From IMG/VR virus record IMGVR_UViG_3300010373_000025, positions 1 through 39,804 of that record: DNA of 39,804 nucleotides. The stretch is one strand, 5' to 3'. Below are positions 4,634 to 39,804 of this stretch, in pieces. The stretch is from a virus. The notes beneath the pieces were generated by a model, which was given only the letters and a program-made list of their open reading frames with translations, did not search any database and was not told the origin of the DNA. A program made the position numbers and the translations under genes. Numbering within the stretch: position 1 is the first letter of the stretch; every line of letters begins with the position of its first letter.

Positions 4634-4726
4634 ATGTTTGACACAGTATTGCTCGCCTATATAGCGGTTTTGGTTACAATTCTTACTCTGGTAAGAGTAA
4701 GGGAATGGATTGAGAAAAGTTTATGA
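4634..4726 (+). CDS. 30-residue membrane peptide
   Basis: ATG 4634 follows AAGGT with short spacing and the stop overlaps the next start as ATGA. The product is one hydrophobic helix (LLAYIAVLVTILTLV) with a basic C-terminus (RVREWIEKSL), giving a likely N-out, C-in orientation. Unknown function. Confidence 0.5.
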   Translation: MFDTVLLAYIAVLVTILTLVRVREWIEKSL

Positions 4727-4914
4727 AAATAAAAGTTGTTACTAGAGATTGGATGCCTAAAAATGAGATTTGGTTTACAAATAATGACGTTCCTATAGAT
4801 ATATTCGACCAGACTATTGTGGAGAAAAATATTAAAGCTGGATTAATAAAGAAGGTAAAATTTATAACTAAATTCAAAAAGAGAAGATTTGGAAAATTAA
4901 AAGGTATTAAATAG
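4723..4914 (+). CDS. 63-residue basic hypothetical protein
   Basis: It starts in an ATGA overlap with the membrane peptide, with GAGAAAAG upstream. The product ends in a strongly basic tail (KFKKRRFGKLKG) after an alternating beta-like region, suggesting nucleic-acid or membrane-surface binding. Not recognised. Confidence 0.6.
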   Translation: MKIKVVTRDWMPKNEIWFTNNDVPIDIFDQTIVEKNIKAGLIKKVKFITKFKKRRFGKLKGIK

Positions 4915-5028
4915 CATAAATCCCCTTACTTTGAACGAGAAGGGGATTTATGCTTAGCAATCACAGATACAAATCTTTATTTCGAAACTAGCTCCGGTAA
5001 TACGGTTTACGGTTCCGGTCTGTAATTG
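4905..5028 (-). ncRNA. Putative minus-strand small RNA (unit B)
   Basis: A consensus promoter reads leftward and predicts a start near 5028. The RNA begins with AATTACAGA, which pairs with TCTGTGATT about 55 bases later (plus-strand 5019-5027 with 4959-4967, one G-U). Enclosed is a CCGG-bounded arm with GTAA/TTAC inside. The RNA then runs into the 15-bp hairpin at 4913-4954. No start codon with a credible reading frame lies within it. It is antisense to nothing annotated except the 3' end of the basic protein gene. Confidence 0.55.
4913..4954. terminator. 15-bp perfect hairpin, probable bidirectional terminator
   Basis: AGCATAAATCCCCTT (4913-4927) pairs perfectly with 4940-4954 around a 12-base loop. 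It directly follows the stop of the plus-strand gene and also ends minus-strand unit B. Neither side has a long T-run right after the stem, so efficiency is uncertain. Confidence 0.6.
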
Positions 5029-7912: not shown

Positions 7913-8152
7913 ATGAATAAATTTATAAAAATATCAGGTTATGATTTATGGAGCGGGAGCTGGAGCGGGAGCTGGAGCGGGAGCAGGAGCTGGAGCTGGA
8001 GCTGGAGCAGGAGCAGGAGCTGGAGCGGGAGCGGGAGCAGGAGCTGGAGCTGGAGCGGGAGCGGGAGCAGGAGCGCGAGCTGGAGCTGGAGCGGGAGCGG
8101 GAGCAGGAGCGGGAGCAGGAGCTGGAGCAGGAGCGGGAGCAGGAGCTATTAA
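7913..8152 (+). CDS. Possible Ser-Trp/Gly/Arg repeat protein (frame uncertain)
   Basis: From ATG 7913 the frame reads a short non-repetitive head (NKFIKISGYDLW) then alternating Ser with Gly, Trp or Arg to TAA 8152. All three plus-strand frames through the repeat are open. The alternatives are (Gly-Ala)n from ATG 7941, whose TAG at 8178-8180 overlaps the next start, and (Glu-Leu/Arg/Gln)n from 7948. The Ser frame is favoured only because its variable codon (GGG/TGG/AGG) matches the G/W/R variation in the 12-base repeat at 10234. No clear ribosome binding site decides. Confidence 0.3.
   Translation: MNKFIKISGYDLWSGSWSGSWSGSRSWSWSWSRSRSWSGSGSRSWSWSGSGSRSASWSWSGSGSRSGSRSWSRSGSRSY
7949..8146. 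repeat. 33-copy hexanucleotide tandem repeat NGGAGC
   Basis: Thirty-three uninterrupted units of NGGAGC, where N is G, T or A and never C; a single unit is GCGAGC. The strand is purine-rich and GC-rich in an AT-rich genome. The order of N is irregular, so this is not a simple clonal expansion of one unit. Confidence 0.95.
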
Positions 8153-9698: not shown

Positions 9699-10013
9699 AT
9701 GAAAAGTAAAATACAAAAACATTATCGCCAAGGAGATTTACTTATTCAGCAAATAGAATCTCTTCCTAAAGGTTTAAAAAAACGAGCAAATAAAGTAGTT
9801 TTGTATGGCTTACAAACAGGGCACTCACACTTTCTCAAAAGCGGTTCAGTTTACGATGGTAAAAATGGATCTATATATATAGAACTTCCCACTAAGAGTC
9901 AATTTCTCCATGACTCAGATCATGATCCTATTGATTTACCTAAAGGAGTTTACCAAGTAATCAGACAAAAAGAGTATTTATCAAAAGATATGGTTCGTCT
10001 AGTAATTGACTAA
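9699..10013 (+). CDS. Conserved 104-residue partner of the DUF6745-type gene
   Basis: The protein shows the pattern RQGDLLIQ (10-17), TGHSHFL (40-46) and HDPIDLPKGVYQV (about 75-87) ending in a basic strand (VIRQKEYL). This pattern is known from small bacterial and phage proteins often encoded directly before DUF6745 repeat proteins. The conserved histidines suggest metal binding. Function unknown; the adjacent placement here supports a functional pair. Confidence 0.65.
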   Translation: MKSKIQKHYRQGDLLIQQIESLPKGLKKRANKVVLYGLQTGHSHFLKSGSVYDGKNGSIYIELPTKSQFLHDSDHDPIDLPKGVYQVIRQKEYLSKDMVRLVID

Positions 10014-10014
10014 T

Positions 10015-11235
10015 ATGATAGAAAAATTAACACCAACTCAAGAAAAATTGATTAAAAAAACGAGAAATGAATGGTTGAATAGGTTCTTTTCTTGCAAGAA
10101 TAGAACAAATAGAAAACAAGCAAAAAAATCTATTGAATGGTTATATAAACTGGCAGGGTTAGAAAAGCCGATGGTTATATTTCTTGATTCTCCTTTGGGA
10201 TCTCAGTATGGAGCTAATATGCTTAAATCCGCTCAAGTAGGGGATCAAGTAAGGGCTCAAGTAAGGGCTCAAGTAAGGGCTCAAGTAGGGGATCAAGTAG
10301 GGGCTCAAGTATGGGCTCAAGTAAGGGCTCAAGTAGGGGATCAAGTAGGGGCTCAAGTAGGGGCTCAAGTAGGGGATCAAGTAGGGGATCAAGTAAGGGA
10401 TCAAGTAGGGGATCAAGTAAGGGATCAAGTAGGGGCTCAAGTATGGGCTCAAGTAAGGGCTCAAGTAGGGGATCAAGTAGGGGCTCAAGTAGGGGCTCAA
10501 GTAGGGGCTCAAGTAGGGGCTCAAGTAAGGGCTCAAGTAGGGGATCAAGTATGGGATCAACAACTTGAATTTTTTAATACTGGATATTATTACTATGGAT
10601 CTGTTTGTGATTACGGATGGGCTGCTTTTTATGAATATTTTAATTCAATTGGCGTAAAGTATCCTAAAGATTTACTTGAAAGATTTAATAACTTTGCCTT
10701 CCTGCTTAAATCTAATATTTATGATCTCATCATGTTAAAGGGTGTATGTATTGTTTCGGATATGCCAACGGCTATTAAGAGAGATTCAGACAATAGACTC
10801 CATAACGCAGAAGGTGCAGCAATAGAATTTAAAGACGGATATAAACTCTTTTTCTATCATGGAATTGCAGTAAAAGAAGAATGGTTGACCCATCCAGAAA
10901 AACTTAGTAAGAAGGATTGGTTAGAAGAGGAGAATTTAGAAAAGCGTAGAATTATTCAAGAACTAATGGGAGACAGCTTTCCTAAGAAAATAGGCTCAAA
11001 ACTTATTGCTAAACCTTCTAAAGAATTTAAAGAAAAACATCATCTTTTAGGATTATATGAGGTCGAGCTTCCAAAAGATCCAGAGAAAATAGCCCACTAT
11101 GTCAGAGTAAGAGATCATTCCAGCAAGCGTGAATACTACTTAAGAGTTGATCCCAAGATTCAGGATGCAGATAAAGCTCTCGCATGGACTTTTGGCAAAA
11201 CTAAAGAAGAATATAAGCCAATTAGTGAAACATGA
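10015..11235 (+). CDS. DUF6745-type protein with 27 four-residue repeats
   Basis: The 406-residue protein has a basic helical head (1-72), a tract of 27 units of Q-V-[G/R/W]-[D/A] (74-181), and a C-terminal domain (182-406). That domain includes YGWAAFYEYF, RLHNAEGAAIEFKDGYKLFFYHG and a closing ALAWTFGKTKEEYKPISET. These segments match the DUF6745 family as I know it from bacteria; its biochemical role is unknown. The start at ATG 10015 is preferred to TTG 10006 because it directly follows the previous stop. The repeat should form a solenoid or elongated helix and varies in copy number in relatives. Confidence 0.8.
   Translation: MIEKLTPTQEKLIKKTRNEWLNRFFSCKNRTNRKQAKKSIEWLYKLAGLEKPMVIFLDSPLGSQYGANMLKSAQVGDQVRAQVRAQVRAQVGDQVGAQVWAQVRAQVGDQVGAQVGAQVGDQVGDQVRDQVGDQVRDQVGAQVWAQVRAQVGDQVGAQVGAQVGAQVGAQVRAQVGDQVWDQQLEFFNTGYYYYGSVCDYGWAAFYEYFNSIGVKYPKDLLERFNNFAFLLKSNIYDLIMLKGVCIVSDMPTAIKRDSDNRLHNAEGAAIEFKDGYKLFFYHGIAVKEEWLTHPEKLSKKDWLEEENLEKRRIIQELMGDSFPKKIGSKLIAKPSKEFKEKHHLLGLYEVELPKDPEKIAHYVRVRDHSSKREYYLRVDPKIQDADKALAWTFGKTKEEYKPISET
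10234..10557 (+). repeat. 27-copy 12-bp coding tandem repeat
   Basis: Unit CAAGTANGGGMT, where N is G, A or T (never C) and M is A or C. All other ten positions are invariant in all 27 copies, so every difference changes the amino acid and none is silent. A block of five units (WA RA GD GA GA) recurs 11 units apart, showing higher-order duplication. Confidence 0.97.
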
Positions 11236-11236
11236 T

Positions 11237-11680
11237 ATGAAAACAACTGATTATATAAATAGCAAGGAATTTAACGAAGAATTGGAGAACTTTGAGGATG
11301 CTCTCACATACAGAGAAGCAGATATAAGAAATGCAGGGCGTGAAAGGTTTATTGCCTTCCTTTCCCAAACCATAGCAAAAGTAAAAGCAGAAGAGAGGGA
11401 AAGGATAAAAGAAAACATAGGGCAACTTAGACAGTGGTTAAATGAAGATAGAATCACAGATCCTAAGAAAATGGTTACAAATGAACAAATAGAATATATG
11501 CTCTCTACCAGTGAGGGGGAAGAAGGGAGGAATATGAATCATAAAGAAAAAGTAAAACTAGCTAAGAAGTTATCAGGCAGGCATACACGCCATTTTGAGA
11601 GTCCTGAGTGGCAAGCACACAAGGAAGCAATTGCAAGGAAAGTTGAGAAAAGAGAATTAAAATCAAAAAAGGTTCTTTAA
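11237..11680 (+). CDS. 147-residue helical hypothetical protein
   Basis: ATG 11237 lies one base after the DUF6745 gene stop; a longer frame from 11147 is only a shadow inside that gene. The product is charged and helical (ELENFEDALTYREAD, KAEERERIKENIGQLRQWL). It ends in a basic segment starting at MNHKEKVKLAKKLSG that might be separately initiated from ATG 11534. A similar HNDKVKLARQ opening occurs in the small gene at 18343. Unknown function. Confidence 0.65.
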   Translation: MKTTDYINSKEFNEELENFEDALTYREADIRNAGRERFIAFLSQTIAKVKAEERERIKENIGQLRQWLNEDRITDPKKMVTNEQIEYMLSTSEGEEGRNMNHKEKVKLAKKLSGRHTRHFESPEWQAHKEAIARKVEKRELKSKKVL

Positions 11681-11702
11681 AATATATACCAGTAGATTTA
11701 CT

Positions 11703-11960
11703 AGGAGATATGGGGACGACCGAACTTTAACTGTGGATGGCAGCCATTACAGAAGTCCCGAACGTATCTCCTCGCAAGTCTGATTGGAGAGGGTTTGATA
11801 GGTCTGGAAGCTAGGGAATTATCCCTAGATGAGTAATTGTCCTTCAAAATAGCGGTAAGGGAAAAAGGACATGCAACTGTCGTGAGGCGTTGTAGTTACC
11901 ACACTCGCTATCTCTACGTGCAACTCGTAGCAGACCTATCAAGCTCTTTACAGGGCTTGG
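11703..11960 (+). ncRNA. Large multi-branched putative structured RNA
   Basis: About 260 bases with no credible gene. Domain 1: AGGAGATA/TATCTCCT (11703-11710 with 11765-11772), inner GGGAC/GTCCC (11713-11717 with 11755-11759), tip CTGT/ACAG and ATGG/CCAT (11731-11752). Domain 2: a perfect 10-bp closing stem (11797-11806 with 11931-11940) around four hairpins: CTAGGGA/TCCCTAG (11811-11828), GTCCTT/AAGGAC (11839-11870), GCAAC/GTTGT (11873-11893) and CTACG/CGTAG (11914-11930). AAGCTC/GGGCTT follows at about 11941-11958. No own promoter or T-run is obvious. It matches neither tmRNA nor RNase P as far as I can tell. Confidence 0.6.
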
Positions 11961-11972
11961 GGGTAGATAAGT

Positions 11973-12188
11973 ATGAAAAGACACAAGTTTTTAGATATGT
12001 TTCATTGCCCAACGTGTTTTGATATTTCAGTTAGGAGGATAGTAAAGACTGGGGAAAAACAAATATTGCAATCTAATTATTATTTAGTATCACCAGTTCA
12101 GTATAGGGCTTGTAAAAAATATGGATTTCCAGAAGGATTGATGCATACAAATGAGTTTTTAGCCCAACAGAAAGAGAAAATGAAATGA
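11973..12188 (+). CDS. 71-residue zinc-finger-like protein
   Basis: ATG 11973 is preceded by the G-rich TTGGGGGTAG immediately after the structured RNA. CPTC (12-15) provides one zinc half-site; a later single Cys (ACKKYG) may contribute. Basic, with a Gln/Lys C-terminus. The stop overlaps the next start (ATGAAATGA). Unknown function. Confidence 0.55.
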   Translation: MKRHKFLDMFHCPTCFDISVRRIVKTGEKQILQSNYYLVSPVQYRACKKYGFPEGLMHTNEFLAQQKEKMK

Positions 12189-12295
12189 AGAAGATACTTT
12201 GTAAATTGTTTGGACATGATGAATATACCTATACCTATGATAGCGGATGGGTAAAATGGTGCTGGAGATGTAAAACAGTTTGGCATACATTTTAA
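12185..12295 (+). CDS. 36-residue Cys/Trp-rich small protein
   Basis: CKLFGHDEYTYTY followed by WCWRC has the look of the DUF1660-type small phage zinc proteins (CKLFGH ... CxRC). Four potential ligands, Cys6, His11, Cys26 and Cys29. It overlaps the previous stop. Role unknown. Confidence 0.55.
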   Translation: MKKILCKLFGHDEYTYTYDSGWVKWCWRCKTVWHTF

Positions 12296-12339
12296 CTTAT
12301 GACAACTTGGCAAACCCTAGTAGATCAGGAGAAGATAGT

Positions 12340-12546
12340 ATGATTTTACAAATACTTAAAAAGAAAGACGACCCATTAGCATTACGCATCTCCATTGGTG
12401 GTAATCAAAAGCAAGCGTATTTGGTATATCGTGGGGATTTGGCAAAGATAAAATTATTACTGGATGAAGTAAATGAGAGATTGAAACAATTACCTAGTAG
12501 CGAAGAGCCAGGAATATCGCCAGATGATGGTAAGAAGTTCGCATGA
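12340..12546 (+). CDS. 68-residue hypothetical protein
   Basis: AGGAGAAG precedes ATG 12340; an upstream extension to 12280 lies in the previous gene. The pattern LRISIGGNQKQAYLVYRGD then KIKLLLDEVNERLK is a beta-strand pair plus helix. The stop overlaps an upstream in-frame ATG of the Acb2/Tad1-like gene, indicating co-expression. Unknown; a DNA-binding fold is possible. Confidence 0.65.
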   Translation: MILQILKKKDDPLALRISIGGNQKQAYLVYRGDLAKIKLLLDEVNERLKQLPSSEEPGISPDDGKKFA

Positions 12547-12560
12547 GAGGGGGTGAAAAC

Positions 12561-12800
12561 ATGGAAGATAAAACAAATACAAAATTAGATCCACAAGCAG
12601 CTTTGCATGAGGAACGAAAAAATATTGATGCTCGTATTCAAGCAGTGAATGCTTTGAAAACACAGGATCAATTTAAAACAGCAGGTAGAGAAATCGCACT
12701 TGCTTATACACATCTTCAAGAAGCAAAGATGTGGTTAGGTCAAGCACTTGGAATGATAGGAAGTGAATTGCCAGCACAATTTGCTGATAAAGCTGAGTAG
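12561..12800 (+). CDS. Acb2/Tad1-like cyclic-nucleotide sponge (copy 1)
   Basis: The 79-residue product is two helices, ERKNIDARIQAVNAL and then AGREIALAYTHLQEAKMWL with GQALG. The R-x3-A-x2-L-x2-A-x-M-W-L pattern is that of the Acb2/Tad1 hairpin domain. Acb2 and Tad1 are phage proteins that bind immune signals (cyclic oligonucleotides of CBASS, gcADPR of Thoeris) and so block abortive infection. GAGGGGGTG before ATG 12561 sets the start. A second copy lies at 21734. Family assignment is from the motif only. Confidence 0.7.
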   Translation: MEDKTNTKLDPQAALHEERKNIDARIQAVNALKTQDQFKTAGREIALAYTHLQEAKMWLGQALGMIGSELPAQFADKAE

Positions 12801-12809
12801 TCTGCCAGT

Positions 12810-12828
12810 TGTACGACAAAATCGTACA
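12810..12828 (+). other. Hairpin after Acb2/Tad1-like copy 1
   Basis: TGTACGA pairs perfectly with TCGTACA around CAAAA. It is followed by AGAGATTATT, the same ten bases that follow the differently sequenced hairpin after copy 2. Confidence 0.7.
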
Positions 12829-12862
12829 TCTGAGAGATTATTAAGGAGTGAATTGGGGATAT

Positions 12863-13009
12863 ATGGAAAATAAAACAGCTTATCAAGCCAAACTCATTTG
12901 GTGGGGTAATTTTATTAATATGAAGCCTAGCAAAAAATACGAAAAACTACGTAAGCAATGGGATAAATGGATGAGTTGGAGAAGAAAACATAATAATTGG
13001 GATTTTTGA
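12863..13009 (+). CDS. 48-residue Trp/Lys-rich small protein
   Basis: Highly basic with six tryptophans (LIWWGNF, KQWDKWMSWRRKHNNW). GGAG lies upstream of ATG 12863. Composition suggests nucleic-acid or membrane-surface binding; not recognised. Confidence 0.55.
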   Translation: MENKTAYQAKLIWWGNFINMKPSKKYEKLRKQWDKWMSWRRKHNNWDF

Positions 13010-13013
13010 ACCT

Positions 13014-13187
13014 ATGAGTAAGAAAAAGATAGAGATTGAATTAATGCCAGAAAGTATAGTTAATTTACAGAAGTTTACTAATATATCCTTGCTTATGTTT
13101 GGAGAACCTTTTTGGAAATGGTGCTTAGACAACTTAGATATGCTTTATGAAATGTATCTTGCCCGTTTGAATGAGGAGGAGAAATAG
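13014..13187 (+). CDS. 57-residue hypothetical protein
   Basis: A lysine-rich strand (KKKIEIELMPESIV) then a helical hydrophobic region (FGEPFWKWCLDNLDMLYEMYL) and an acidic end. It starts 4 bases after the previous stop. Unknown. Confidence 0.55.
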   Translation: MSKKKIEIELMPESIVNLQKFTNISLLMFGEPFWKWCLDNLDMLYEMYLARLNEEEK

Positions 13188-13320
13188 TTTTTGTGGTCTA
13201 TAAAAGAAGGTAAACCCATAATATATATGACACGATCAAACAATAACCTTATAACATTATCTAGCCACGATTTAAAGTAATTGTGGATAACTCAGTGGAT
13301 ATGTGTATAACTTTAACCTT
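13188..13320 (+). other. Candidate replication origin with DnaA boxes
   Basis: This AT-rich gap holds two consensus DnaA boxes in the same orientation, TGTGGATAA at 13282-13290 and TGTGTATAA at 13302-13310 (complement of TTATNCACA), 20 bases apart, next to a stretch (13210-13280) made almost only of A/T-rich tetrads. A third box, TTATCCACA, occurs inside a gene near 15721. The second box overlaps a TATAAC -10 for the nuclease gene. A 17-codon frame at 13231 is not considered a gene. Confidence 0.4.
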
Positions 13321-13725
13321 ATGTATCTAAGAAAGAAACGACAAGCAAAACCTTTTGATCCTACCAACCCTTTAGAAATACAGGAAGGCTACGCACTTGC
13401 AGGTTACCTTCTCTATTTACAACGTCAAGGCAAAATACAAGTCTATTCTCATCTACCCCATGAACAATATACAAACTCACGAACTATTAAAAAGAAAAAC
13501 AAATGGTCAGGGGTAAGAGCAGGAGTTCCAGACTATATTATCGTTATTAAAGACAAGGTAATATTCTTAGAGTTAAAAAGAAAAGTAGGTGGTGTTGTGA
13601 GTGCAGACCAGAAAGAATGGTTACTTGCTTTAGATAATAAACTAACTGTTAGTACCGTTGCTAAAGGATTTGATGAGGCAAAGAAGTTTATAGATCACAT
13701 TTTAACAAGACAGGGTGTGTTATGA
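13321..13725 (+). CDS. VRR-NUC domain nuclease
   Basis: The 134-residue product (from ATG 13321; a GTG at 13303 lies in the DnaA-box/promoter) has the VRR-NUC core. This comprises GVRAGVPDYIIV (about 66-77, with the catalytic Asp), VIFLELKRK (about 82-90, the E-x-K pair) and SADQKEWL (about 97-104). Stand-alone VRR-NUC proteins in phages are structure-specific or restriction-type nucleases, often called Holliday-junction-resolvase-like. It fits the recombination/replication region. Confidence 0.85.
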   Translation: MYLRKKRQAKPFDPTNPLEIQEGYALAGYLLYLQRQGKIQVYSHLPHEQYTNSRTIKKKNKWSGVRAGVPDYIIVIKDKVIFLELKRKVGGVVSADQKEWLLALDNKLTVSTVAKGFDEAKKFIDHILTRQGVL

Positions 13726-13732
13726 TTTTTGT

Positions 13733-13876
13733 ATGTCAATGAAATTTATTTGCGATAGGTGCGGTAAGGAAACGATACGAGGATATCGCATTATTGTACC
13801 ACCTAAAAAGACAATAGATTTATGCGAAGAATGTGAAGAGGCATTTGAGGAGTTTATGAAAGGTCAGGAGAAATGA
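13733..13876 (+). CDS. 47-residue zinc-ribbon protein
   Basis: CDRCG (7-11) and CEEC (31-34) form a single zinc site with a strand-rich insert, then an acidic helix. The stop overlaps the next start (ATGA). Confidence 0.65.
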   Translation: MSMKFICDRCGKETIRGYRIIVPPKKTIDLCEECEEAFEEFMKGQEK

Positions 13877-14043
13877 ATGCTCTAACTTCTCACCTATTAG
13901 TCGGTGTTTTATTCTTATTTCTCGCAGAACGGGTATTACATATACTTCATATTGAGAACGAATCTAAAGTTCTGTATGAAAAGTTTTTACTATTTGTTAT
14001 CTGTATATATGTAATTCTTGGCTTGTTTTTCAAAATTCCCTAG
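13873..14043 (+). CDS. 56-residue two-helix membrane protein
   Basis: Two hydrophobic segments (LLVGVLFLFLAERVL, about 8-22, and LLFVICIYVILGLFF, about 39-53) joined by a charged loop. ATGA coupling to the zinc-ribbon gene. Holin-like topology, but remote from the endolysin. Unknown. Confidence 0.6.
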   Translation: MNALTSHLLVGVLFLFLAERVLHILHIENESKVLYEKFLLFVICIYVILGLFFKIP

Positions 14044-19420: not shown

Positions 19421-21331
19421 ATGGATGACAAACTAATTGCACTGCACGACACAATTGTTACAGAACAAGATCCCTTAAAACTTGATTTAGCAGATGAGGA
19501 GTTTATTGAAACAATAGACGCACTTATCGACTCTTCACAAAAATACTATTTAAAAAAACAACTTTATGACAGACAGAATAAAAACCTTGACTACTACCTA
19601 GGCGATCAGTTAAAAATTGGTGGTAAAGATGGACTTAAAGAATTTCAACCTAGGTTTGTAGAAAACATTATTTACGAAGGTATTAGGCGTATTAAGCCTA
19701 TCGCCACTTCTCAACTCCCCGATTTAACAGTAAAAGGACAAGATGCTTCAATGACGACTCTTTTGTCTGATCTACTAAATACTGATGCTAAGAAAAGGTC
19801 AAATAGAAAGTTGCTAGGACTTGCTCATGTTCATGAACAACTATTTTTTTATGCTGTTATAAAAGCCCGATGGAATCAAGAAAAAGGCACAGATGGTGAT
19901 TACGAGTTTATTAATACCTTTCCTAACAATATAGTATGGGATCAAAACTGCAAAACAAATAACGCTGATGACATGATGTTTGTTGCTGAAAACGCAGATC
20001 TACGAGTAAAGCAAGTTATGATGATGTTCCCTAAAACTGCACAGGCATTACTTCATAAACTAGGATATGACCAACCAGATGAAGACGGAAAATCAACTGA
20101 GGAGCGTCTTGCCTCACCTATTAAAATATGGGAAGTATGGTTTCATTGGTGGAAAGAAACGAAAGACGATCAAGGCAATAGTAAATGGGAAAAAATCCAT
20201 GCCGTTGTGTGGAAATATGACAACTTAGTATTAGGAAAAATGCGTAACCCTTACTATGACTACGAGGGTAAGCCACGCTTGTTTGATCCTGTTATGCGTG
20301 AGAAGAATGGCATGAGTGAGTCAGAAATAATGAAGCAATATTTTGACTCATTGCAGCAGCCGGCAAATAATATTTACTACAACTATTTTAGAAATCCACG
20401 AAAACCATATTTCTTTATGGTTTATGAATCACTAGGCCGAGATCCAATAGATGAAACAAACAGAATTGAGCAAATATTAAAGTTTCAGGATCATATTAAC
20501 GACGAGGGTAGGCAAATTATTGAAATGAATGAACGATCTGCAGGTAAGGCTGTCTTCAACTCAGATGCACTAGATAAAGAAACAATCAAGTCAATTGACT
20601 GGAGAAATGTTAGACAAGCAATATCGGTAACAAGTGATGATATTAATAAATCCTTTGCTGTTGCTCAAATGCCAGCAGCTCCATCGCAATTATATGAATC
20701 AAAGCAAATGAATAGAGGCATAGCTTTTGAAATGTTAGGCTTAAACGATACAACGCGAGGTGTTAAGCCAGATGGCGACACAACACTTGGCGCATCCCAA
20801 ATGTATCGTGAACAAGATTTTGGATTTATTGATGATCTAGTTGAGGACACAATTAACGATGCTGCAGAATGGCAAGCACAATGGACAATGCAGTTTATCC
20901 GACTTTTCTATACGAAAGACCATATGCGAGAAATTATTGGAAAAGATGGAGATAGTGTATTTACAGCAATTAATCAAAACTATATAACAGATGGATTAGT
21001 AGTTGAAGTCTCTGCAAGTGCTGTTGATAAAATGATGCGAAAACAACTGGCAGTACAAAATATGAAAATGGGCGTGGGTGATCTTCTTTCTTATTACGAA
21101 GATACAAATCAAAGTAATCCAAAAGAACGTGCATATCGAGCATTTATGCAACAATCTTCCCCACAGATGTATGCACAACAATATCTTATGCCAGAAAGTA
21201 ATGCATCAAATAAACCGGACGCACAACCTGGAGCGCAAATACCTGCTTCTGTATCAACTGAACAACCACAACCAACACCAGTACAACAGACAGTACAATT
21301 TGCACCAGCAGGTGCAGCACCTCAACAATGA
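19421..21331 (+). CDS. Portal protein
   Basis: The 636-residue protein sits between TerL and scaffold/capsid and has the portal composition. It begins with an acidic N-terminal helix region; then RQNKNLDYYLGDQ (about 50-62) and FVENIIYEGIRRIKPIAT lead into the wing. A long clip/stem region with WRNVRQAISVTSDD follows, then FGFIDDLVEDTINDAAEWQ, and a Pro/Gln-rich tail (QPQPTPVQQ) of about 60 residues. The layout fits the large podovirus-type portals. It forms the dodecameric DNA channel at one capsid vertex. Confidence 0.82.
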   Translation: MDDKLIALHDTIVTEQDPLKLDLADEEFIETIDALIDSSQKYYLKKQLYDRQNKNLDYYLGDQLKIGGKDGLKEFQPRFVENIIYEGIRRIKPIATSQLPDLTVKGQDASMTTLLSDLLNTDAKKRSNRKLLGLAHVHEQLFFYAVIKARWNQEKGTDGDYEFINTFPNNIVWDQNCKTNNADDMMFVAENADLRVKQVMMMFPKTAQALLHKLGYDQPDEDGKSTEERLASPIKIWEVWFHWWKETKDDQGNSKWEKIHAVVWKYDNLVLGKMRNPYYDYEGKPRLFDPVMREKNGMSESEIMKQYFDSLQQPANNIYYNYFRNPRKPYFFMVYESLGRDPIDETNRIEQILKFQDHINDEGRQIIEMNERSAGKAVFNSDALDKETIKSIDWRNVRQAISVTSDDINKSFAVAQMPAAPSQLYESKQMNRGIAFEMLGLNDTTRGVKPDGDTTLGASQMYREQDFGFIDDLVEDTINDAAEWQAQWTMQFIRLFYTKDHMREIIGKDGDSVFTAINQNYITDGLVVEVSASAVDKMMRKQLAVQNMKMGVGDLLSYYEDTNQSNPKERAYRAFMQQSSPQMYAQQYLMPESNASNKPDAQPGAQIPASVSTEQPQPTPVQQTVQFAPAGAAPQQ

Positions 21332-21336
21332 GTTCC

Positions 21337-21365
21337 TTGACATATAGTAGAGTTATTTATATACT
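21337..21365 (+). promoter_or_regulatory. Consensus promoter
   Basis: TTGACA (21337-21342), 17-base spacer, TATACT (21360-21365), nine bases, ATG 21375. Confidence 0.7.
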
Positions 21366-21374
21366 TAGAGAGTA

Positions 21375-21734
21375 ATGAAAAAATCTCAAACTCTTCTTAA
21401 AAGTGGAACAAGCAAACAATTCGATAAGTTAAACGAAGGAGATTTAGTCTTTGCTTTCCAATGCAACCGCTTAGAAAAAGGAAACGACCAATATCAACTT
21501 GAAACAAATATGGATTGGTCTTTTGATGATCCAACCACAAACGAGGAAGTAAAAAGTTTTATTGGAAGTGTTTTATCTAGTATTGAGGACGTTTTTGGTG
21601 AAAAGATGATAACTGAAGCAATTTTACATTATGCACAGGAAAGAAATCATTTAATTATAACTCCACATGGCGTGGCTCTCAATTTTAAAAGTAAAGGCTT
21701 AAAATTTAAAGATTGGAAGGGGGGTGAAAAATAA
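21375..21734 (+). CDS. 119-residue hypothetical protein
   Basis: Leader of about 2-3 nt predicted. Mixed alpha/beta product (GDLVFAFQCNRLEKG, EVKSFIGSVLSSIEDVFGEKM) with a basic end. It overlaps the second Acb2/Tad1-like gene by TAATG, as the first copy also follows a small gene. The shared promoter suggests a two-gene accessory unit inserted between portal and scaffold. Confidence 0.65.
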   Translation: MKKSQTLLKSGTSKQFDKLNEGDLVFAFQCNRLEKGNDQYQLETNMDWSFDDPTTNEEVKSFIGSVLSSIEDVFGEKMITEAILHYAQERNHLIITPHGVALNFKSKGLKFKDWKGGEK

Positions 21735-21985
21735 TGTCAGACACAATGGGAATAGATGTAAAGGAATTACTACATGCTGAAAGAAAATTGATTGATGAAC
21801 GCATCAATGCAGTAAGTCTTTTGAAAAGTAATGAAGGTTTGAAATCAGCAGGTAGAGAAATCGCTTTATCCTATACACACTTGCAAGAAGCAAAGATGTG
21901 GTTAGGACAAGCTCTCGGAATGGTAGGAAGTGTCTTACCACAAGAGTTTGCTGATAAAGCAGAAAATGGTCAACCTGTAAAGTAG
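21734..21985 (+). CDS. Acb2/Tad1-like cyclic-nucleotide sponge (copy 2)
   Basis: The 83-residue product matches copy 1 over its length: ELLHAERKLIDERINAV, then AGREIALSYTHLQEAKMWL with GQALGM and FADKAE, and a short extra tail. The same helical-hairpin motif supports the Acb2/Tad1 family of immune-signal sponges. GGGGGTGAAAA is upstream, nearly the same as at copy 1. The copies differ most at the N-terminus and in the loop between helices, as expected if they bind different nucleotide signals or co-assemble. Confidence 0.7.
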   Translation: MSDTMGIDVKELLHAERKLIDERINAVSLLKSNEGLKSAGREIALSYTHLQEAKMWLGQALGMVGSVLPQEFADKAENGQPVK

Positions 21986-21990
21986 TTTGC

Positions 21991-22010
21991 TCCAAGCCTT
22001 CGGGTTTGGA
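21991..22010 (+). other. cUUCGg hairpin after Acb2/Tad1-like copy 2
   Basis: TCCAAGCC pairs with GGTTTGGA (one G-U) around a TTCG tetraloop closed by C-G, then AGAGATTATT as after copy 1. Confidence 0.75.
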
Positions 22011-22022
22011 AGAGATTATTCC

Positions 22023-22051
22023 TTGACTATTGATTAAATAATGTGTAATAA
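22023..22051 (+). promoter_or_regulatory. Promoter of scaffold gene
   Basis: TTGACT (22023-22028), 17-base spacer, TAATAA (22046-22051), eleven bases, ATG 22063. Confidence 0.55.
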
Positions 22052-22062
22052 TAATTTTATCT

Positions 22063-22737
22063 ATGGTTGATACAACTCTACAAACACCGCAAGACCCTCC
22101 TGTTATTGACCAAGCAACAATTGATAAACGAGCCGAAGAAATCGCAGCAGCAAAAATTGAGCAAATGAAAGAAGAGCTTGCTCAACGAATTAGTGGCAAG
22201 TCTGATTATCAAGCACCTAAAACATGGCAGGAATTAGAACAAAAAACAGAGAATAAAATTGAAGAACGTGCTGCAGCAATTGCCGAAGAAAAAGTAAAAG
22301 CTGCACTTGAAGAAAGAGATAGAGCTGCTGAAGAAAAGCAAAAACAAACACTTGCACAGACAGAAGCTCAACAACAAGCAGAATGGACACAAATGAGCAA
22401 GGAATGGGCAGAGGCAGTACAAGACGGGGTTATCCCAGATATTAACCCTGAAATTAAAAAGAAGCTCCTTGCAGATCCAGACTATTCACACCTTACACCA
22501 GAAGAACGAAACGATCCAGGACTAAAAGCATATAATGATGGACGTTTACTTCATGCACAACTTAAACAAGAAGGAAAGTCTACAAGTTTTTACAGAACAC
22601 TTGATAAGTTTTATGACAAAATGCCAGCAGGTGCATATGCACCAGTTTTGGGCGGTTCAACACCAACACCAACACCAACGGAAGAGCTAGATTACGAACA
22701 AGTCAAAGCTAATAGAAAAGCAAAATTAGGTTTTTAA
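22063..22737 (+). CDS. Scaffolding protein
   Basis: The 224-residue product is almost entirely charged helix (RAEEIAAAKIEQMKEEL, EERAAAIAEEKVKAALEERD) with a TPTPTPTEE linker and a basic C-terminal segment (YEQVKANRKAKLGF). This is typical of capsid scaffolds, whose basic tail binds the coat. It lies between portal and major capsid genes, the usual place. Confidence 0.8.
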   Translation: MVDTTLQTPQDPPVIDQATIDKRAEEIAAAKIEQMKEELAQRISGKSDYQAPKTWQELEQKTENKIEERAAAIAEEKVKAALEERDRAAEEKQKQTLAQTEAQQQAEWTQMSKEWAEAVQDGVIPDINPEIKKKLLADPDYSHLTPEERNDPGLKAYNDGRLLHAQLKQEGKSTSFYRTLDKFYDKMPAGAYAPVLGGSTPTPTPTEELDYEQVKANRKAKLGF

Positions 22738-39591: not shown

Positions 39592-39804
39592 ATGGCAGTA
39601 TCATGTTCAAATTTATTAGCAAATGGAAGCACAACAGGAGCAACTTCATATACGACTGCCTCAGTCTCTCCTGGAGCAAACCATTTACTTCTCTTACAAG
39701 TTAAAAGTAGAACTAATATTACCGCAACGCCAAACACGCCTACTGTTACAGGATTAGGCTTAACATGGGTACAAATTGGATTACCTCTTGATATTGACGA
39801 TACA
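39592..39804 (+). CDS. Tail fibre-like protein, N-terminal part (continues at base 1)
   Basis: AAGGGAGCC precedes ATG 39592, 3 bases after the previous stop. The frame (SCSNLLANGSTTGATSYTT, then ASVSPGANHLLLLQ) is cut by the window end and continues in phase at base 1, because bases 39682-39804 equal 1-123. After closing the circle the protein has about 635 residues. See the entry at 1-1818 for its repeats. Confidence 0.85.
   Translation, partial: MAVSCSNLLANGSTTGATSYTTASVSPGANHLLLLQVKSRTNITATPNTPTVTGLGLTWVQIGLPLDIDDT
39682..39804. repeat. Terminal direct repeat, right copy
   Basis: Identical to bases 1-123. When the genome is circularised one copy must be removed. Confidence 0.95.

Follow-up and report, generated by a model that had tools for sequence, protein, structure and literature searches.

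The window and its two acb2-like genes

The stretch of DNA analyzed here (termed the window) is a 39,804-base IMG/VR virus record from a virus of bacteria. Because its ends are identical over 123 bases (1-123 and 39682-39804), the record probably represents a whole phage genome, circularly assembled and either circular or circularly permuted; a search of 50,697 phage records with its region 10000-14000 gave no close match. Two of its genes, termed here copy 1 and copy 2, resemble acb2. The genes and their immediate surroundings are as follows.

12340..12546, + strand: small gene upstream of copy 1 (reading frame open from 12280)
12561..12800, + strand: acb2-like gene, copy 1 (79 aa)
21337..21365, + strand: promoter-like site TTGACA-17-TATACT, preceding the copy 2 gene pair (consensus match only)
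21375..21734, + strand: 119-aa gene immediately before copy 2, its stop overlapping the copy 2 start (TAATG)
21734..21985, + strand: acb2-like gene, copy 2 (83 aa)
22023..22052, + strand: promoter-like site TTGACT-18-AATAAT, with TG before the second hexamer, right after the RNA element of copy 2 (consensus match only)

Both reading frames exist as the original prediction had placed them, and they share the core motif on which it was based, AGREIAL[A/S]YTHLQEAKMWLGQALGM; the encoded proteins show 69% identity across 71 aa (E 3e-36). At the ribosome binding sites, which it had called nearly identical, both genes have strong Shine-Dalgarno (SD)-like sequences (GGGGGTGAAAA). For copy 1 the ATG at 12561 is favored over that at 12543 because of the SD sequence GAGGGGGTGA at 12547-12556.

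Copy 1 lies in the non-structural region of the window; there, as in phages G010 (L019) and G016 (L080), the gene is some kilobases upstream of the terminase or portal. These two phages have terminase, portal, capsid-region or tail-region genes in common with the window at roughly 28-51% identity. Phage G008 (L017) has little in common with it, and phage G001 (L003) has little beyond the acb2-like gene and the small upstream gene, whose G001 relative (66% identity over 96 columns) is separated from the acb2-like gene by one small gene. A Pfam search with the small upstream gene gave no match. Copy 2 comes after a portal-like gene (19421-21331) and ahead of genes at 22063 and 22855, so that it stands between the portal-like gene and one that precedes the capsid-like gene. 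Searches for relatives of the adjoining 119-aa gene found none; together with it, copy 2 looks like an inserted accessory cassette, though the regional total of promoter-like sites around it is not above that of shuffled sequences. The predicted transcript start of the downstream promoter-like site falls almost at the next ATG (22023-22065; ATG at 22063), and the gene there has no SD sequence, its message possibly being leaderless.

The original prediction had also found no other anti-defence gene in the window. This claim was tested in part: Pfam (ten larger proteins) and PADLOC (eight) revealed none that is known, PADLOC being a defence library in which counter-defence is poorly covered. Elsewhere in the window, repeats with short periods of 12 bases or multiples of 6 form two coding arrays, at 7949-8152 and 10173-10632, the latter encoding GDQVRAQV-type repeats ahead of a DUF6745 domain. 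By eye, from translations, GroES-like and GroEL-like genes are seen at L019:5170-7142 and L080:5796-7687, a few genes after the acb2-like gene of the former and the L080-type gene (described below) of the latter, and a TnpB-like reading frame (L019:2584-3654) lies two genes upstream of the L019 acb2-like gene.

Minimal members of the Acb2/Tad1 hairpin family

An assignment to PF24729 (Acb2/Tad1 hairpin) had been proposed for both proteins. On sequence grounds it is secure for copy 1, which scores 28.2 bits against the curated cut-off of 27; copy 2 taken alone falls below that cut-off (23.2 bits, E 8e-5) and is placed in the family because it is 69% identical to copy 1. Relatives were collected from IMG/VR and from prokaryote genomes and aligned (n=25), and 23 of these match PF24729 individually. 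Nine positions are invariant throughout the alignment (R19, L52, Q53, A55, K56, M57, W58, G60 and D76); both copies retain all of them, and therefore give no sign in sequence of divergent specificity. The original prediction had suggested that the two sponges may cover different immune cyclic nucleotides or form mixed assemblies. Among solved structures, the best sequence match to a profile of 12 relatives is Tad1 (8kbb; E 5e-5; RE-A-A-TKLQE--MWLG), whereas the match to Acb2 of phage T4 (Vs.4) is weak (E 0.15). NCBIfam contains no match to the acb2-like proteins, PHROGs contains weak matches to copy 1 and none to copy 2, and among cultured phages there is a single weak match to copy 1, in Bacteroides phage BK735P4, and none to copy 2. 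A second acb2-like copy was found in none of 15 other phage records carrying one, records that may be fragments. A tree groups copies 1 and 2 with support of only 83/82; they may derive from duplication or from separate acquisition.

The AlphaFold2 model of copy 1 (pLDDT 85) is a two-helix hairpin, with long helices predicted at residues 11-33 and 36-67 and residues 1-10 predicted, at low confidence, to be disordered. Foldseek and VIA list T4 Vs.4 over model residues 7-75, among fold matches that are generic and non-specific; two-helix folds are so widespread that they have no diagnostic value. Known Acb2 proteins (T4 Vs.4, 7uq2; Pseudomonas phage Acb2, 8h2x) share with the window proteins the PF24729 helical hairpin and a conserved T-x-L-x-E-A-x-M-W-type core. 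They consist of a short N-terminal helix and two long antiparallel helices and form a hexamer with dinucleotide and trinucleotide pockets, but about 15 N-terminal Vs.4 residues preceding the aligned part have no counterpart in the window proteins. Tad1 (Thoeris anti-defence 1), at 123-138 aa, has an N-terminal beta-sheet that the shorter window proteins lack, the copy 1 model having no beta strand. The ligand pockets of both families are summarized in PMC12043709. As far as the model and alignments go, the window proteins are thus most likely minimal helical-hairpin sponges with neither the Acb2 N-terminal helix nor the Tad1 beta-sheet.

An RNA element that encloses the stop codon

The original prediction described, after each stop codon, a stable hairpin of completely different sequence set between conserved borders. 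A hairpin is indeed present at both genes, but the element is larger than described: the conserved borders are themselves the arms of a lower stem, in which AGUAGUYU, UAG stop codon included, pairs with AGAUUAUU. The two elements are built as follows.

12796..12842, + strand: element of copy 1 (-18 kcal/mol, z -5.6)
12796-12803 / 12835-12842, + strand: lower stem, stop codon 12798-12800 inside
12804-12805 (GC) / 12833-12834 (AG), + strand: internal loop
12806-12816 / 12822-12832, + strand: upper stem of 11 positions with one U-U mismatch, loop 12817-12821
21981..22020, + strand: element of copy 2 (z -3.1)
21981-21988 / 22013-22020, + strand: lower stem, stop codon 21983-21985 inside
21989-21990 (GC) / 22011-22012 (AG), + strand: internal loop
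21991-21998 / 22003-22010, + strand: upper stem of 8 pairs, UUCG loop 21999-22002

TAGT[C/T]TGC[C/T] lies directly 3' of both stops, and the identical 3' sequence reported earlier was recovered: exact AGAGATTATT occurs in the window only at 12833 and 22011. Similar elements follow genes in three other phages (L003, L017 and L080). All are 40-48 nt long and combine a lower stem with at most 8 pairs, an internal loop of 2x2 bases (GC/AG; GC/GG in L003, by inspection), a variable upper stem and a constant core, UYU-GC / RG-AGA. Across the five, fold z-scores range from -3.1 to -7.1, the stop codon is within the lower stem in every case, and the sense strand always folds better than its complement. 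The upper stems of the two window copies do differ, as had been claimed, but neither is unique: that of copy 2 resembles those of L017 and L080 (CAAGSC-loop-GSUUUG), and that of copy 1 resembles the longer type of L003 (CAGUUGU...ACANCUG). The upper stems of the two copies thus side with different phages, unlike the grouping of their proteins in the tree.

Of 56 stops in the window, three have z below -2.4, both elements among them; hairpins of this kind are absent from its remaining gene ends and from its promoter boundaries. The strongest fold at any of the 56 stops (z -8.5) is a palindrome at 4912-4957, which starts at the stop of gene 4723-4914 and has neither a GC/AG internal loop nor a T-run. 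Stop-codon read-through was considered and rejected, the in-frame extensions of copy 1, copy 2 and L003 being unlike in both length and sequence. A covariance search of Rfam 15 gave no match over the window, nor around the copy 1 element at E up to 5, and a literature search revealed no matching conserved hairpin tied to anti-defence genes; RNA-based anti-CRISPRs are treated in PMC10651486.

Covariation and specificity

The elements of copy 2, L017 and L080, three of only five that are known and thus a small sample, align without gaps over 40 columns and were used to count covariation. Seven of 16 pairs have changed on both sides while all 48 cells remain paired, a score reached by none of 500 shuffles; the signal is lost when the partner is slid. 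Upper-stem compensations include C-G to U-A, U-A to C-G and C-G to G-C, and two G-U wobbles are kept in all three copies. Selection on RNA structure, which the original prediction had proposed from the window copies, is thus supported by other phages too. Conservation of the RNA fold in the five elements is secure, and selection seems to act on the shape of the RNA as such.

The motif is also associated with a particular kind of gene. When both strands of ten phage genomes (401 kb) were scanned for the structure under strict settings, six matches were obtained, as against about 1.3 from shuffles: both window elements, L003, L017, L080 and one weak match; five of the six are thus at the stops already described. 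L003 and L017 are the acb2-like genes of two other phages that otherwise share little with the window. Pattern scans of IMG/VR, which are blind to protein content, recovered only acb2-like genes and L080: for the 8-pair type, both stems form only in L017 and L080 among 47 stretches, and in two scans for TAR-TTTTTGCC...GRGAGAAA only L003, L017 and L080, among 21 stretches, fold at a true gene end. A covariance model, R1, built from three elements and run with default filters, missed copy 1 and L003, whose upper stems are of another type.

In most of the acb2-like relatives the element is absent. The L019 acb2-like gene has a long hairpin within which its stop can lie, but the upper part is built differently (z -4.1 for a shorter stretch). 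At other phage genes, 33 of 401 control stops have adjacent hairpins below z -2, and when all acb2-like stops are taken together their hairpin excess is modest (Mann-Whitney p 0.004); the claim therefore rests on the specific motif.

The L080 gene and its fused relatives

The L080 element lies 3' of an 87-aa gene that is unrelated to the acb2-like genes, and no acb2-like gene was found in the rest of the 40.6-kb L080 record. The 87-aa protein matches two PHROGs of unknown function, 11049 and 872. In cultured phages, domains of this type occur fused to others: in Caulobacter phage Jess A gp016, PF24729 (62.4 bits) follows the L080-type domain, and a Tad2-like domain accompanies it in E. coli phage Ro157c2YLVW gp12 (80 bits) and in Bacteroides phage BS-TP1 gp86 (67 bits), where the match to the L080-type domain is only 26 residues long. 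The Acb2/Tad1-hairpin and Tad2-like domains are both sponge families. The L080-type domain is also fused to non-sponge domains, and because of these other partners its link to sponges is suggestive and not exclusive. The two-part genes of Jess A and Ro157c2YLVW, which join the two domains in one chain, differ from L080 in that no such RNA element was found after them. A strong hairpin of different build (L114:1798-1847, -21 kcal/mol) lies beside the stop of the BS-TP1 Tad2-like fusion gene.

Discussion

The best explanation, which we hold tentatively and at slightly less than even confidence, is that the window carries two sponge cassettes whose 3' element determines what becomes of the mRNA 3' end. 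Each gene would form a small cassette consisting of a ribosome binding site, a reading frame and a 3' RNA element. For the ligand, the oligomeric state and the mode of element action we infer the following. The proteins, as minimal helical hairpins, would probably oligomerize and sequester cyclic oligonucleotide alarm signals, the likeliest ligands being cyclic trinucleotides, because they lack the N-terminal helix (in Acb2) or beta-sheet (in Tad1) that contributes to the other pockets. The element would act as a conserved sense-strand RNA structure, composed of a stop-codon lower stem, a constant core and an exchangeable upper stem, that directs RNase III-type processing or serves as an exonuclease barrier; a terminating ribosome, by melting the lower stem, may gate this processing or protection. 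The advantage would be plentiful mRNA for a protein needed in excess over its ligand. We favor a role in processing or protecting the 3' end because of the RNase III-like two-stem fold, the lack of a U-tract, the position at gene ends and the sense-strand preference. In phage T7, RNase III processing hairpins, with an upper stem, internal loop and lower stem, lie between polycistronic genes; the likeness is in shape alone, since the window element differs in having a stop codon inside its lower stem and a constant 2x2 loop.

Other roles for the element have to be weighed against this. An intrinsic terminator was rejected, there being a T-run after none of the five elements and neither window element being listed by a simple terminator scan. 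That the element is a terminator or operon boundary working without a U-tract would suit its location at gene ends and the promoter-like site within 3 bases after the copy 2 element, but other promoter boundaries in the window (21331/21337 and 22737/22748) have no hairpin and a terminator would not need a constant internal loop, so that we regard this as unlikely. Equally improbable, in our estimate, is that the element gates translation, by slowing termination or by controlling re-initiation at the next gene, or that the protein regulates itself by binding to it. The stop codon inside every lower stem, the AAGGAG directly after the copy 1 element (12843-12848) and the constant internal loop, as expected of a protein site, speak for it. 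Yet the following gene is different in each phage, the next gene after copy 2 begins 42 bases further on and has a promoter-like site to itself, the read-through products of the copies are unlike, and Acb2-like proteins are not known to bind RNA. Integron attC sites are folded, sequence-variable palindromes at the 3' ends of small mobile genes, and a DNA site of this kind, moving small genes between phages, could account both for the different genes before nearly identical elements in L017 and L080 and for how little G001 and the window share apart from the small upstream gene and an acb2-like gene followed by the element. The elements, however, at 40-48 nt, lack attC core boxes (RYYYAAC, GTTRRRY) on both strands in all five cases, and the coding strand outfolds its complement because of G-U wobbles, which fits RNA; this is the least probable of the alternatives, and very unlikely.

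The proteins themselves might be small helical phage proteins other than sponges, with an assembly role for example: copy 2 lies among structural genes and below the Pfam cut-off, and the pocket-building parts of Acb2 and Tad1 are missing. Against this, 25 relatives from a range of phages keep the core motif almost unchanged, copy 1 is in a non-structural region, and, to the extent that the searches reveal it, only the window and neither of its structural relatives G010 and G016 has a copy beside the portal gene; we give this possibility a low probability. Returning to the sponge cassettes, a broader reading would be that a previously undescribed RNA motif marks sponge-type counter-defence genes across several phages, governs how much of their product is made or joins in counter-defence, and allows one sponge-type gene to be exchanged for another under a shared element; taken as a whole this is doubtful.

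If the element does control sponge output, it would be an RNA feature open to selection and linked to anti-defence genes, and would provide a handle for finding unknown genes of this kind: a gene-blind scan led from acb2-like genes to L080, whose domain elsewhere is fused to Acb2/Tad1-hairpin and Tad2-like domains. The minimal proteins would show, in addition, which pocket of the Acb2/Tad1 fold suffices for sequestration.
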